A stretch of 64,000 bases of DNA. Source: Solimicrobium silvestre. GTDB taxonomy: Bacteria; Pseudomonadota; Gammaproteobacteria; Burkholderiales; Burkholderiaceae_D. The stretch is taken from assembly GCF_002976435.1 (NCBI RefSeq), contig NZ_PUGF01000008.1:62001-126000 (forward strand), given 5' to 3'. Below, piece by piece: positions 26,100 through 45,058 of this stretch (its first letter is position 1; the number at the start of each line of letters is the position of its first letter). The notes beneath the pieces were generated by a model. That model was not told the DNA's origin. It ran no database searches and worked only from the letters and a program-made list of their open reading frames with translations. The position numbers were made by a program, and so were the translations under genes.

Positions 26100-27095
26100 T
26101 TAAATACGTGCTTTTTTACGTCTAATGAATCCGAGTCCAGCCAAGCCTATCGCCATCAGAGCCAAGGTTAAAGGTTCAGGAACTGGGTTGCTTAACAAAA
26201 CCATATCAATATTCACAAAACCATTATTGGCATTGCCTAATGGGGCACCATTATCGGAAGTATCGCTTCCCCCAATCATCGAGCCGATGCTCAGAAAAGA
26301 AGCGTCGATGTACGATCCACCGCCGCCCCCGCCGTCGGTAGTACCATCACCACCGCCACCGCCTGAATAACCGCCACCGCCACCACCACCTTGCCAGCCG
26401 CCGCCGCCGCCGCCACCGAAGCCGCCGTTAGCACATGCTGGAACTGAAGGATCGCAGTCACCAAAACCTGCCAAGAAACTAAAAGCACCCGCACCGCCTA
26501 AGCCCGCACCACCGGTTTGCGTATAAGTCGTGCCGACACCATCGCCGCCGTTACCACCCCAACCGCCGCCGCCGCCGCCATTGTCGCCAATTTCATCATT
26601 ACCACCCGCACCACCGGAACCAGCGCTACCGCCCGCACCGCCGCCAGCACCAAATCCTGCTTGGCCAGATGTTGTAGTTTGACCGCCACCGCCAACTGTC
26701 GCGTCAATGTAACCGGCACCGCCACCGCCACCGGCTACGATCAGCGGTGAGGTTGAGCCGATGATGTAGACAAAAGATCCACCACCACCACCACCGCCTG
26801 CCAGCCCGCCGAAGTTACCGGTTAAGCCTTGTCCACCAACCACAATACCCAGCTGAGTACCGGTGGTGAGGAAAAGATCACCGCTTATCTGCGCACCCAA
26901 ACCACCTGTGGTACCAACACCATTACCTGATCCACCCTGTGCACCTGCTGCGGTGAGGTCATAAACTCCTGAAGTGGTGATGGTGTAGTCGACTATCGAT
27001 CCGGTATAGGTGAATGGCACAGCTTGCGCGCTTGCGCCGACAAACATCATCGCGAAGAGCGCTTTTTTTACAAAAGTTTGATTTCGTGTATTCAT
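26100..27095 (-). CDS. Glycine-rich (ALK-like GRD) exported protein with PEP-CTERM anchor
   Basis: 331 residues. The signal peptide ends at ASAQAVP. Residues ~27-290 resemble the glycine-rich domain also found in ALK/LTK: TYTGSIVDYTITTSGVYDLT, AAGAQGG, then LFLTTGTQLGIVVGGQG and repeated poly-glycine runs separated by short strands (PLIVAGGGGGAG, SYIDASFL). The end is a clear PEP-CTERM sorting signal: VPEPL, a hydrophobic helix and RRKKARI. The protein should be exported, cut by an exosortase and displayed outside, perhaps with exopolysaccharide. A sigma-54 promoter at 27142-27157 and a terminator at 26054-26073 make it a one-gene unit. No exosortase gene lies in this window. Confidence 0.88.
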   Translation of the reverse strand: MNTRNQTFVKKALFAMMFVGASAQAVPFTYTGSIVDYTITTSGVYDLTAAGAQGGSGNGVGTTGGLGAQISGDLFLTTGTQLGIVVGGQGLTGNFGGLAGGGGGGGSFVYIIGSTSPLIVAGGGGGAGYIDATVGGGGQTTTSGQAGFGAGGGAGGSAGSGGAGGNDEIGDNGGGGGGWGGNGGDGVGTTYTQTGGAGLGGAGAFSFLAGFGDCDPSVPACANGGFGGGGGGGWQGGGGGGGYSGGGGGDGTTDGGGGGGSYIDASFLSIGSMIGGSDTSDNGAPLGNANNGFVNIDMVLLSNPVPEPLTLALMAIGLAGLGFIRRKKARI

Positions 27096-27478: not shown

Positions 27479-28606
27479 TCAACGCTGCACAATCACCGGC
27501 TTGGGAATACCAATACTCATCGCCAGTTGCAGTGCATTATTAGCCTCATCCCGACTGGCAAAAGGGCCGCTGAATAAGCGATACAAAGTACCTTGCTGAA
27601 CGATTTCAAAAGCAGGCAATTGCTTGAGCTTGCTTTGCAAATGGGTAAATGTCGCCTCGGCATTGGAACGCAATCCAAACGCACCAAACTGCAAATAAAA
27701 TCCGCTGGTGTTGTTCGGTGTACTAATCACAACCGGCACTTGAGCAACATCTTCTGAACTGGCATGGGTTGCAACCAAGGCTTCAAAACTGGCGGTATCG
27801 GTGGCGGCTGGCACAACTCTTACCGGTGCCGCAGCTGCTTGTTCGGCAATTACCGGAACAACAACGGTGGGAGCAACGATAGACGTAACAACCGGCGGCG
27901 GAGCACTGGCCAGTTTATCGCCCACATTATTCTTTTTGTTTTCTGCCATTTTTTCTATGTCGGCAGGCAACAAACGTTCTAGCAGCAATTCACTACTTCC
28001 TTTACCTAAATAGTCCAGCTTTAAGGCCGCGGTATACGATAGATCAACAATCCGATTGGTATGAAATGGGCCACGATCATTGATTTTTACGATCACCTGC
28101 CGGCCATTACTGATGTTGGTAATCCGTGCATAAGAAGGAATAGGCAAGGTCGGATGGGCAGCGGTCATTTTGTACATGTCGTACAGCTCGCCGGACGAGG
28201 TGCGTTGTCCGTGGAATTTTTTACCATACCAACTGCCTGTGCCACGCTGACTAAATGCGCGATCATCAATCATCGGGGTATAGGTTTTTCCAAACACCAC
28301 GTAAGGCTTGTTACCGGAAACTGAATACGGCTCAAGTTTCGGTTCTGCATCTAACGTTAACTCCAGGCCGGGCGGCGGATTTTCACCAGGGCCGTCATCT
28401 TTATAATAAGCACCGCGGCCGGAACCAGCTTTGGGTAAGTTAGGCGCTGGCTGTCCCGCGGCACTTGGAATGGAAGAAGTCTTGGTCGAATTTGTGCTAC
28501 CGGCGCTACTTGGAGCAGCTACTTTCGGCGCGCTCCCACATGCGGCTAGCAGTAAACCTAATAATGTAATCGCTACTAATTGAGACCGGCTTTTCAAACT
28601 ATGCAT
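27479..28606 (-). CDS. rlpA: RlpA septal ring lytic transglycosylase lipoprotein with SPOR domain
   Basis: 375 residues. Lipobox LLAAC near residue 22. After a low-complexity linker, the double-psi beta-barrel domain spans ~120-210 (GTGSWYGKKFHGQRTSSGE; KINDRGPFHTNRIVDLSYTA). A long Ala/Val-rich linker leads to a C-terminal SPOR domain (~300-375; GFYLQFGAFGLRSNAEATF to GPFASRDEANNAL) that binds denuded glycan at the septum. RlpA proteins cleave such glycan in Pseudomonas. It follows rodA on the same strand, as is usual, but here a 267-bp palindromic element separates the two. Confidence 0.95.
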   Translation of the reverse strand: MHSLKSRSQLVAITLLGLLLAACGSAPKVAAPSSAGSTNSTKTSSIPSAAGQPAPNLPKAGSGRGAYYKDDGPGENPPPGLELTLDAEPKLEPYSVSGNKPYVVFGKTYTPMIDDRAFSQRGTGSWYGKKFHGQRTSSGELYDMYKMTAAHPTLPIPSYARITNISNGRQVIVKINDRGPFHTNRIVDLSYTAALKLDYLGKGSSELLLERLLPADIEKMAENKKNNVGDKLASAPPPVVTSIVAPTVVVPVIAEQAAAAPVRVVPAATDTASFEALVATHASSEDVAQVPVVISTPNNTSGFYLQFGAFGLRSNAEATFTHLQSKLKQLPAFEIVQQGTLYRLFSGPFASRDEANNALQLAMSIGIPKPVIVQR

Positions 28607-28635
28607 CGTTGTTCCCGTTTATTGAAACTGGTTTT

Positions 28636-28902
28636 TAGGACTTCCGCAAAATTGTTCCTGCAAGGCTAAACATCCTTTGGTCGCGAAGGAAACTTCCCCC
28701 TGTGGGAAGTTCGTTCCGTCGGCAGGCGATATATCGCCTGAAACCCCGACTACACCGCGCCGACACAGACAGTACGAATGTACGGCAAGGAGAGGTGGCG
28801 CAGGGAATTCAACAACACCGTTGTTGCCTGCGGAACGACACTGGCTTGCCAGTGTGCGCCCTGCAAGGGTAGCGCCGCTGGAGCGGTTTTGAGGAAGCCC
28901 TA
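28636..28902. mobile_element. MITE-like element made of tandem hairpins with terminal inverted repeats
   Basis: The ends are inverted repeats: TAGGACTTCCGCAAAATTG (from 28636) and, read from 28902 on the other strand, TAGGGCTTCCTCAAAACCG; 20 of the first 27 positions agree. Inside are at least seven hairpins: TCCTT/AAGGA (28673-28690), AACTTCCC/GGGAAGTT (28691-28711), an 18-bp perfect palindrome (28723-28740), GTAC-GAAT-GTAC (28772-28783), CAACAAC/GTTGTTG (28810-28826), ACACTGGC/GCCAGTGT (28838-28855) and CCGCT/AGCGG (28875-28886). The linker TCGTTCCG occurs in inverted positions in both arms, so the whole element is globally symmetric while the hairpin sequences differ. No ORF is credible. 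It lies between rodA and rlpA and ends over the rodA stop codon. Confidence 0.75.
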
Positions 28903-30006
28903 GCTCTGGATTAATTTTCTATGGCGCTGAATACTCATCAAAATACCAGCACCCCAGCCCAGTGTCGCCAATGCCGTTCCGCCATAACTCATCATCGGCA
29001 GCGGCACACCAACCACCGGTAAAATACCGCTGACCATACCCATGTTAACAAACGCATAGGTAAAAAATATGGTGGTGATCGAGCCGGCTAGTAAGCGGGT
29101 AAAGAAAGTAGGTGCATTAGCCGCAATCATTAAACCGCGGGTAAATAGCAGCAGATAGAGCACCAATAAAACGCAACATCCGATCAAACCGAATTCTTCT
29201 GAAAATACCGCAAAAATAAAATCGGTGGTGCGTTCAGGAATAAATTCCAAATGCGCCTGTGTGCCTTTTAGCCAGCCTTTGCCGGTAATACCGCCGGAAC
29301 CCACGGCAATCGTGGACTGAATAATATGGAAACCTTTGCCGAGCGGATCGGTGGTGGGGTCGATTAAGGTAAGTACCCGCTCGCGCTGGTAATCATGCAT
29401 GCTATGCCACACCAGCGGCATGCTGGCTAACGCTAATACGATGACACCGATAATCACACGCCATGATAATCCGGCCAAAAATATCACTGCCATACCGGCC
29501 GCCAATACCAGCATTGCCGTACCTAAGTCTGGCTGTTTGACGATGAAAGCGATCGGCAATATTAGCAGCAGCGCCGCCACGATAAACTCACGCCAACCCA
29601 CAGCACCTTCACGCTTCTGAAAAAACCACGCCAGCATCAGCGGCATCGCAATTTTCATTAACTCGGAAGGTTGCACCACCATGCCGATATTGATCCAGCG
29701 TCGCGAACCTTTTTTAACGATACCAAAGATGGCTACCGCGATCAGCAAACTAACACCTACTGTATATAAGGGAACAGCAAAGCGCATCAAGGTTTGTGGG
29801 GGCACATTGGCCGCTATCCACATGACAATAAACGCTACCAAAATATTACGTAGCTGATCTTGCACGCGCCCGGGGAAATCAATTCCGGCCGAATATAAAG
29901 TGACAATACCGACTGACATAATCAAAAAAATGATGATCGCCAACGGGCCATCAAATACGGTTACGTAAGGTTTAATGGTTTGCCAGGGCGAGTGATGTCT
30001 GCGCAT
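28900..30006 (-). CDS. rodA: Rod shape-determining SEDS glycosyltransferase
   Basis: 368 residues, about ten membrane spans. SEDS hallmarks: PDLGTAMLVLAAG, the loop around PTTDPLGKGFHIIQSTIAVG, EFIPERTTDFIFAVFSEEFG and GVPLPMMSYGGTA. RodA polymerises lipid II glycan during elongation together with PBP2. The start overlaps no other gene and lies 14 nt after mrdA. The TAG stop falls inside the terminal repeat of the palindromic element at 28636-28902, so the native 3' end may have been altered by that insertion, although the C-terminus still looks normal. Confidence 0.96.
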   Translation of the reverse strand: MRRHHSPWQTIKPYVTVFDGPLAIIIFLIMSVGIVTLYSAGIDFPGRVQDQLRNILVAFIVMWIAANVPPQTLMRFAVPLYTVGVSLLIAVAIFGIVKKGSRRWINIGMVVQPSELMKIAMPLMLAWFFQKREGAVGWREFIVAALLLILPIAFIVKQPDLGTAMLVLAAGMAVIFLAGLSWRVIIGVIVLALASMPLVWHSMHDYQRERVLTLIDPTTDPLGKGFHIIQSTIAVGSGGITGKGWLKGTQAHLEFIPERTTDFIFAVFSEEFGLIGCCVLLVLYLLLFTRGLMIAANAPTFFTRLLAGSITTIFFTYAFVNMGMVSGILPVVGVPLPMMSYGGTALATLGWGAGILMSIQRHRKLIQS

Positions 30007-43732: not shown

Positions 43733-45058
43733 CAGTAGTGTCCCAACGTTTCTCATAGGAGAGACATCTGTTCTGGTTGATTTTCACCATCAGGCAAATT
43801 TGATGGCGGCGTAAGTAGTTGATTTAAAGGTGTTGTTTCAAACATAGTCAAACTCAAGATTTGTAGAATTTCGTAAAGGCTGTGAGGCAAATGCAACCGT
43901 TTTTTCACGATGGCGATAAGAACATATGTGGCGACGGCAATCTATATTTGGGTTTTGACGGCGTTTTCGCTGGCTCCCAAAAAGGATTTGATACGCAAAT
44001 GTTGTTTGATCCATTTGAAGAACAATTCGACTTGCCAGCGCTGCTTGTACAGCGCGGCGATCAGTTCCGGTTTGAGCGCAAAATTGTTGGTCAAGAATAT
44101 GAGGCGTTTTCCGTTCTCGTCTTTGACGACAACGCGCCGCAACGTCCTTGGATAATCCTTGCTTGCGTAATACAACGGCAGCTCGCCAGTCTGGTCGCAA
44201 ATGAGATTGGTGCTGGCTCGATCGACCGGGTGGGAGTAACGGCGCTTGAATTTGGTGTTGCTCTTGGCTCGGGTTACAAAGAAAGCGTTCAGCTCGTGGA
44301 GACGATGCAGCCGTTTGAAATCCAGGTAGCCGCGATCCATCAGATAAAATGCACCTGGCTCGATAGCCAGATCGTCCAGAATATTGACTTCGTGGGTCTT
44401 GCCGTCGGTGATATGAATAAAGGTCGGGATCGAACCACGCAGGTCGAGCAGAGTATGCAATTTGATTGCAGCTTTGGTGGAGCGAAACGGCGCCCATGGA
44501 TGAACAGACAAACACAGATCGATTGTGGTTGCATCGAAGGCATACACAGTGGCGTCCAAATAGATTCCCATCGGTTCGTCGGCATACAGAGGTCGAGCCA
44601 TCGCAATCAGATGCTGCGCAAAATCGGCATAAATCTGCCACGGACAAGTGGCATTCGCATTCGACAGCGTGTTGCGAGAAATGGTTTCGCCTCGAAATCC
44701 CATGTGGTAAAGCCGGTGCGCTTGCGCCCGCAGATTGACTTCGATGTCGCGCAGGGATTCTCGGTAGGTCAGCTGAGCGAATGCCATAGCGAAGAATTGA
44801 TCCAAACAAGAAAAATTCTTGACCATGTGTTCGCCCCGGTGCGCCGCAACGCATCGACGAAACGTGGTCAATGGCAGATAAGTCATGATCTGCGAAAAAA
44901 CGAGTTTGCCATGATGCATAGTAGCGTTGAGCGGAAATCCGCAAAAAGCACCTATTTTGCGCCTCGACGTTCAAATCGAGACCAAACAAATTCGTCGTTT
45001 TATGCAAGTAAATCATTAACTTACAAGCTCCTGGCGTGAGAACGTTGGGACACTACTG
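43733..45058 (-). mobile_element. IS4-family insertion sequence, 1326 bp, inactivated
   Basis: Both ends carry the same 18-bp inverted repeat, CAGTAGTGTCCCAACGTT, and the flanks are a 9-bp direct repeat ATACGCCGT (43724-43732 and 45059-45067). It holds one transposase gene on the minus strand with an in-frame TAG. The ends and the repeats are intact, so a functional transposase elsewhere could still move it. Confidence 0.93.
43753..44919 (-). pseudogene. IS4-family transposase with an in-frame stop
   Basis: The frame from ATG 44919 (MHHGKLVFSQIMTYLPL) reads 325 residues to TAG at 43942-43944, then continues in the same frame for ~62 codons (IAVATYVLIAIVKKRLHLPH) to TGA at 43753. IS4 relatives have Trp here (KTQIWIAV), so TGG changed to TAG. 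DDE residues are present: FDATTIDL, YLMDRGYLD, and the Y-(2)-R-(3)-E-(6)-K motif in YKQRWQVELFFKWIK. The truncated protein keeps all catalytic residues but loses its C-terminal helix region. Longer frames overlapping it on both strands are shadows. Confidence 0.9.

Follow-up and report, generated by a model that had tools for sequence, protein, structure and literature searches.

We find that the 267-bp element between rodA and rlpA is probably a non-autonomous MITE of a Correia-type superfamily, in which structured cassettes are shuffled among transposon ends. It is clearly an extension of a known system and not a new class of machine: the superfamily is recognised by its interior, its ends are exchangeable, and it carries additional hairpin modules. 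In 61 of the 159 genera sampled from one order, the interior is what is conserved, inside ends that can be exchanged. How Correia elements are moved and maintained thereby becomes a comparative question, with many natural end-core combinations in environmental bacteria, and models of the core and modules would allow many unannotated repeats to be recognised.

The rodA-rlpA element and its copies in the host genome

The element occupies positions 28636-28902 of the window, the 64,000-nucleotide stretch of DNA analysed, and takes up the space that separates the rodA stop codon from rlpA; both genes are on the minus strand, rlpA at 27479-28606 and rodA at 28900-30006. The parts that a sequence-only reading had described (inverted ends, a palindrome, stems and an inverted linker) are all present where it placed them. 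The two ends, TAGGACTTCCGCAAAATTGTTCCTGCA and TAGGGCTTCCTCAAAACCGCTCCAGCG (reverse complement), agree at 20 of 27 positions in a by-eye count; 28723-28740 is a perfect 18-bp palindrome; inverted linker copies lie at 28711-28724 and 28825-28838; and two more perfect stems, of 8 bp each, pair 28691-28698 with 28704-28711 and 28838-28845 with 28848-28855. Folded as single-stranded RNA, 28620-28920 reaches -126.4 kcal/mol, compared with -96.8 (sd 5.2) for shuffled sequences (z = -5.65, 0 of 100 as low). The plus strand reads CTA at 28900-28902, so the TA beside the element and the element's own first G together form the rodA stop codon TAG. The parts are as follows.

28636-28637, no strand: TA target dinucleotide at the rlpA-side end; TA is flanking in other end-paired copies
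28638-28665, plus strand: left terminal inverted repeat, GGACTTCCGCAAAATTGTTCCTGCAAGG; ends common to the genome's other copies
28666-28756, minus strand: left module of three hairpins (about 28673-28690, 28691-28711 and 28723-28740), with linker TCGTTCCG at 28711-28718; also in L146 and L133
28757-28801, plus strand: conserved core hairpin (P2-P3); model match at 28754-28798, and covariation
28795-28869, plus strand: right module, GGTGGCGCAGGGAATTC, hairpin A (28811-28825), GCCTGCGGAACGA, hairpin B (28838-28855), GCGCCCTGCAAGGG; same module in L126, L141, L147 and L161
28870-28900, minus strand: right arm and right terminal inverted repeat, (GCCGC)TGGAGCGGTTTTGAGGAAGCCC; from sequence and the ends of other copies
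28901-28902, no strand: TA at the rodA-side end, joining the first G (28900, minus strand) to give the rodA stop TAG

The strands of the core hairpin are GCAGACAGTAC....GTACGGCAAGG, which in the window copy read ACAGACAGTAC, and covariance model R1 scores the window core at 37.2 bits (E = 8.4e-6; L128:2155-2199). Pieces of the left module are also found in L138, L124, L118 and L145, and the right module is partly present in L150. Profiles of the left and right halves give no direct match to each other's copy, and the module in L118 matches both (E = 0.001 and 1.5e-5). The left and right modules are probably related, in inverted orientation and with divergence; the presence of one hairpin module in both halves, as diverged copies in opposite orientation, is the likely cause of the inverted linkers in the two arms. 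Elsewhere in the window, 26100-27095 encodes a glycine-rich protein of 331 residues with a C-terminal PEP...FIRRKK tail, which we take to resemble a PEP-CTERM sorting signal.

The full element has 72 BLAST matches in its own genome (Oxalobacteraceae) and the common short unit 78, and a single copy often accounts for several of these matches. When ends up to 420 bp apart are paired, with up to 5 mismatches allowed in 28 end positions and forms lacking the core included, the fetched stretches of the genome yield 54 pairs, eight of which were dropped as overlapping or spurious (L157 among them). The remaining 46 end-paired copies span 40-358 bp, 27 of them 97-101 bp, and have ends close to TAGGACTTACGCAAAA; L161 (C38), the half element L133, the end-decayed L162 and single ends such as L149 stand outside this count. 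Among the copies read, the window copy is the sole one with both side modules, L146 having the left only and L126, L141, L147 and L161 the right only. The 267-bp form carries two extra hairpin modules, which also occur in other frames and where the core is missing.

Dispersed copies with the same inverted ends, at 40-358 bp too short to hold a transposase gene, are what a MITE calls for, as is an empty site in relatives. The rodA-rlpA spacer lacks the element in all four same-genus genomes searched (G001-G004, L417-L420; a single site examined), where it measures roughly 13 to 40 bases with start codons placed by eye; L045, with 84% identity in rodA, shares the spacer sequence of G001 and is not independent. 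Among 29 named rodA-3' regions read, a clear core element is present in L031 only (Herminiimonas sp. RYN_545, same sequence as G006), in the same spacer and directly at the rodA TAG, and its ends are different. The short unit matches 29 of 119 genomes, own included; three of four congeners give no match and the fourth two weak pieces, and many relatives match the middle of the unit alone, with different ends. The matching ends of many copies, found by the genome search that the sequence-only reading had proposed, and the empty site support its suggestion of a MITE-like element, or of a palindromic family dependent on a transposase encoded elsewhere. Two outcomes that it had named as telling against this are both contradicted: the many own-genome copies rule out a single-copy curiosity without relatives, and the rodA-3' regions of relatives, including the core element of L031 with its other ends, together with the empty congener sites, rule out a conserved, similar and unstructured rodA-rlpA spacer.

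The core hairpin and the Correia element

The common part of the family is a 56-nt hairpin core, which most copies have. Within the order, R1 at E ≤ 1e-3 has matches in 116 of 399 genomes, which represent 61 of 159 genera; across the phylum it has matches in 29 of 398 genomes, and both genome counts include our own. These E-values are rough, and the weakest phylum matches (E near 1e-4 to 1e-3) may be chance. Sequence comparison, beyond the reach of the sequence-only reading, identifies this core with that of the Neisseria Correia element. Ten elements of 104-109 bp in G113, a genome of another family with ten core-model matches, carry the core between CREE ends; set against the CREE ends printed in the excerpted part of PMC5039591, one end is exact and the other mostly one letter off. 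One of these elements is the same as a high-copy N. gonorrhoeae repeat over 107 of 107 nt, found in two records, NZ_CP119140.1 among them, as at least 40 pieces. With the same 107-nt query, Cupriavidus metallidurans CH34 returns a core match only, and the core there lies within other inverted ends. A Correia element in the strict sense has a characteristic core and 26-bp ends beginning TATAGTGGATTAA; the core is present, R1 covering both our own copies and the G113 element identical to the N. gonorrhoeae repeat, and the ends are not, those of our element being TAGGACTTACGCAAAA. In G057, a separate tandem array (L179, 1523-2566) holds ten core matches at a spacing of about 106-111 bp, mostly degenerate.

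Beyond the core, our element and the Correia repeat (CREE, NEMIS) share a palindromic build, terminal TA, a high copy number and a short form some 104-108 bp long. They differ in their ends (GGACTTACGCAAAA... here, TATAGTGGATTAA... in Correia) and in host, ours being outside Neisseria, to which the excerpted text of PMC2649163 describes Correia repeats as confined; the same excerpt presents them as likewise without a known autonomous partner. The long Correia form has a 50-bp insert (PMC2229807, in excerpt), whereas the extra hairpin modules here are about 75-90 bp, and relatives of our element include frames with TAA/TTA duplications. ERIC, RUP, RPE and YPAL, as the excerpt of PMC2229807 presents them, are also non-autonomous foldback elements of about 100-200 bp, several with TA termini, a likeness drawn from their descriptions; no Rfam model corresponds to our core. 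Rfam 15 gives no match over the window, a best E of 0.31 (21 bits, cut-off 60) and no match at E ≤ 0.1 in eight loci, and a known RNA family is ruled out by the lack of a match above gathering score. A phage origin was likewise rejected, with no match in 50,697 phage records (E ≤ 0.01 for the element, E ≤ 1e-5 for the Correia form). The BOX element of Streptococcus pneumoniae, modular with boxA, boxB and boxC, is like ours a mosaic of hairpin modules; in our element the ends are exchanged. Searches of open papers found nothing on the core outside Neisseria, judged by title, nothing that joins Correia-like with MITE or MITE with Oxalobacteraceae, and, for Correia element with Burkholderia, only work on Neisseria meningitidis by title; the core strings ccttgccgtac and gtactgtctgcg have no occurrence among the literature matches listed, in which the other core strings occur in papers that seem unrelated from their titles.

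The core covaries strongly across Proteobacteria. A 30-row MAFFT alignment of cores, made with no structure model, contains 15 pairs, 9 of which changed on both sides, with 88.0% of cells paired (81.8% shuffled) and 35 double-change cells (9.2 shuffled). Covariation in this alignment is 0.250, compared with 0.124 for shuffles, none of 500 of which is as good, and at most 0.103 for the slid control, which is the fairer of the two because the structure was picked from those same 30 sequences. An R1-fitted alignment of 92 cores (86 distinct), which is fitted to the structure and hence leans towards it, is 89.5% paired versus 77.0%, with 136 double changes versus 25.6 and a covariation of 0.338 versus 0.111 (0 of 500; slid at most 0.057). 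RNAalifold finds just 11 pairs in the 30-row alignment, with a small covariation term. The unpaired core strands GCAGACA and GGCAAGG vary little, and by our own tally two positions beside P2 are GA/GA in 38 of 86 cores, form varied Watson-Crick combinations in another 33 and do neither in the remaining 15. These covarying stems, which the sequence-only reading had put forward as a check, support the selection on structure that it suggested.

The pattern behind that suggestion, conserved linkers with hairpins kept as hairpins but not as sequence, recurs in the right module. In 25 parsed variants both hairpins stay paired and their letters are free, with 315 Watson-Crick pairs, 4 G-T and 6 A-C; at least 4 of these 25 rows are misparsed at hairpin borders, and since the search pattern was anchored on the linkers, the set is no test of linker conservation. 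The linkers GCAGGG, GCCTGCG-AACG and GCGCCCTGCAAGGG do recur across module contexts. Hairpins that are nearly all Watson-Crick with free sequence would also be expected if they were kept paired mainly by arm-to-arm DNA copying (quasipalindrome correction, template switching), with covariation arising in the absence of selection. Deletion forms, which occur in our own genome and in others, point the same way where the only part missing is the core's apical hairpin (L313, L317, L324). We consider this account possible but doubtful, as it explains neither the phylum-wide conservation of the unpaired core strands nor the tandem G-A alternatives.

Exchangeable ends and the search for a transposase

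MITEs are usually classed by their ends. Judged by flank scores, the terminal inverted repeats around this core are of many evidently unrelated kinds, even in one genome. The two sides of a given core match each other as inverted repeats, with a mean score of 13.9 compared with 6.9 between elements and 6.5 for shuffles (69 elements, one per genome save for one duplicate, L031 and L183 having the same sequence), and 59 of the 69 reach at least the 99th percentile of the inverted-repeat score. When flanks are linked at a score of 14 (99.9th percentile of chance), they fall into 21 clusters, or 18 among the 58 clear-ended elements with the duplicate dropped. Other linking scores give other numbers (7 clusters at 12, a score hardly above chance, and 32 at 16), and a figure of about 20 end kinds among 68 genomes is accordingly threshold-dependent. 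Representatives of different end clusters nonetheless have 71% of the core in common on average.

Ends could instead belong to a single ancient element and have drifted along with its transposase, with no exchange of cassettes between frames. Neighbouring genera do have ends in common, GGACTTACGCAAA-like ends occurring in six other genera of the family and GAGCnGCTAACAAAA-like ends in several families, and a lax linking score puts most ends in one cluster. We judge such drift unlikely, given that the ten elements of G094 have six unrelated end types (G161 has three; G096, G113, G385 and G789 one each), that the target type differs, TA versus TAA/TTA, and that core and module are independent. 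The right module is present in 33 of 145 genomes and 19 of 44 genera of the family (own included), and lies on the right side of the core in L257, on its left side in L258, and also occurs core-less in other frames; in our own genome it is also found inside GGTAGGGTGGGC ends (L116:5265). The element's own ends, in turn, bracket core-less interiors (L159, L118, L164). Repeats of the type CGTCATTCCCGCG / GCGGGAAT are found inside frames that start with the element's own ends (L118, L157, L159, L386; own genome) and also terminate an IS5-type element that has an open frame, which is another sign of shuffled interiors. In L272 and L277 (G051, G009), tandem copies of the right module, spaced by about 106 bp, lie within frames of the GGCGAGTCGTTGG type.

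Both our own ends and those of Correia sit at TA. Among the own end-paired copies, TA stands beside the left end in 28 of 46, beside the right end in 27 and beside both in 18, compared with 16.7 expected from the marginals; a duplication of TA, the kind of sign that the sequence-only reading had named as support, is for these ends indistinguishable from a fixed TA. The GAGCCGCTAACAAAA-like (GAGC) ends of G316, G428 and G096 have equal 3-bp flanks, TAA or TTA, in 12 of 23 cases, where 6.6 are expected and 14 of 5000 shuffles are as high. IS630- or IS5-like enzymes use TA or TNA targets. In the reading that we prefer, a MITE with shuffled cassettes, different transposases with such targets would act in trans, each moving the elements that bear its ends, and cassettes would change end frame by recombination or capture.

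An autonomous insertion sequence sharing the own ends was not found in the genomes and stretches searched, some of which are drafts. The exact ends in ten relatives (40 stretches) flank small elements only, or are single, within a reach of about 1.6 kb to the partner, and the DDE_Tnp_1 insertion sequences present in four of five genomes have other ends where looked at. We rejected ends borrowed from a resident IS5-type element on the same searches, ten genomes by exact end pattern and five by DDE_Tnp_1. The window itself contains a DDE_Tnp_1 transposase reading frame at 43918-44553 (G000:C8:105918-106553) with one in-frame TAG and inverted ends of about 40 bp, ATTTAAATCATATACG...GTAGTGTCCCAACG, unlike those of the element.

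Stop codons, strand and the role of the core

An end of 16 of the 46 own elements lies -3 to +7 nt from the stop of a gene that reads towards the element, compared with 199 of 2,428 noncoding TA sites (8.2%; p = 4e-7 for the excess); one ORF caller served for elements and background, and a version with two ORF callers gave the same result. Insertion into the TA of a stop codon would be tolerated because TA and the first G of the element rebuild TAG, and we infer that copies accumulate just behind genes because the stop is restored in this way. Orientation is biased as well. Of the 13 own elements at stops that have a placed core, 12 contribute the core-minus strand to the mRNA; for stops within 60 nt of the core, the counts are 10 opposite strand and 2 same in our own genome, and 31 opposite versus 15 same in other genomes (p = 0.026). 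The orientation count leaves out cores inside mechanical ORFs (3 of 36 own, 29 of 94 other) and 3 that lack both neighbours, and two own copies and two repeats were removed from the other-genome rows. The core-minus strand carried by mRNA at stops is not the strand favoured by the tandem G-A pairs. An asymmetry of G-U over A-C, tried as a pointer to the functional strand, has a mixed outcome: G-T and A-C mismatches number 30 versus 36 in the core, 7 versus 18 in inner P2, 6 versus 0 in outer P2, 23 versus 12 in the ends (p = 0.09) and 4 versus 6 in the modules.

Ends at stop codons and the orientation bias (12 of 13, and 31 versus 15) would fit a core and modules that are structured RNAs selected for the host, for 3'-UTR stability, RNase III or protein binding, with the repeats as basal stems. 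The strong covariation, the conserved unpaired strands and the exchange of tandem G-A pairs (38 of 86) for Watson-Crick pairs (33 of 86) are consistent with this as well, and the excerpted texts of PMC10969869 and PMC2229807 describe RNase III cleavage of Correia transcripts; for the long form, an IHF site is reported alongside this cutting (PMC10969869, PMC2649163, PMC2229807, in excerpt). Such host selection is nevertheless a tentative reading, and we lean against it: G-U is not consistently in excess over A-C, the copies are specific to the lineage (each of the four congeners has 0 to 2 matches), the core is absent from some end-paired forms, and no Rfam family corresponds to it.

For a Correia-type MITE, selection on one folded strand would keep the core, which most likely acts as a folded mRNA tail or as a single-stranded DNA hairpin, by analogy with Correia RNA and RNase III. 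More speculatively, and with some doubt on our part, the core and side modules may themselves be selfish units, structured DNA cassettes that are recognised by their single-strand shape and enter any transposon-like pair of inverted ends. If so, selfish cassettes would outlive each transposase and spread over the phylum by changing vehicles.

As a further difference in target between end types, 7 of the 10 copies in G385 (L326-L335) have TCA on both sides, by eye, TCA being the complement of the TGA stop.
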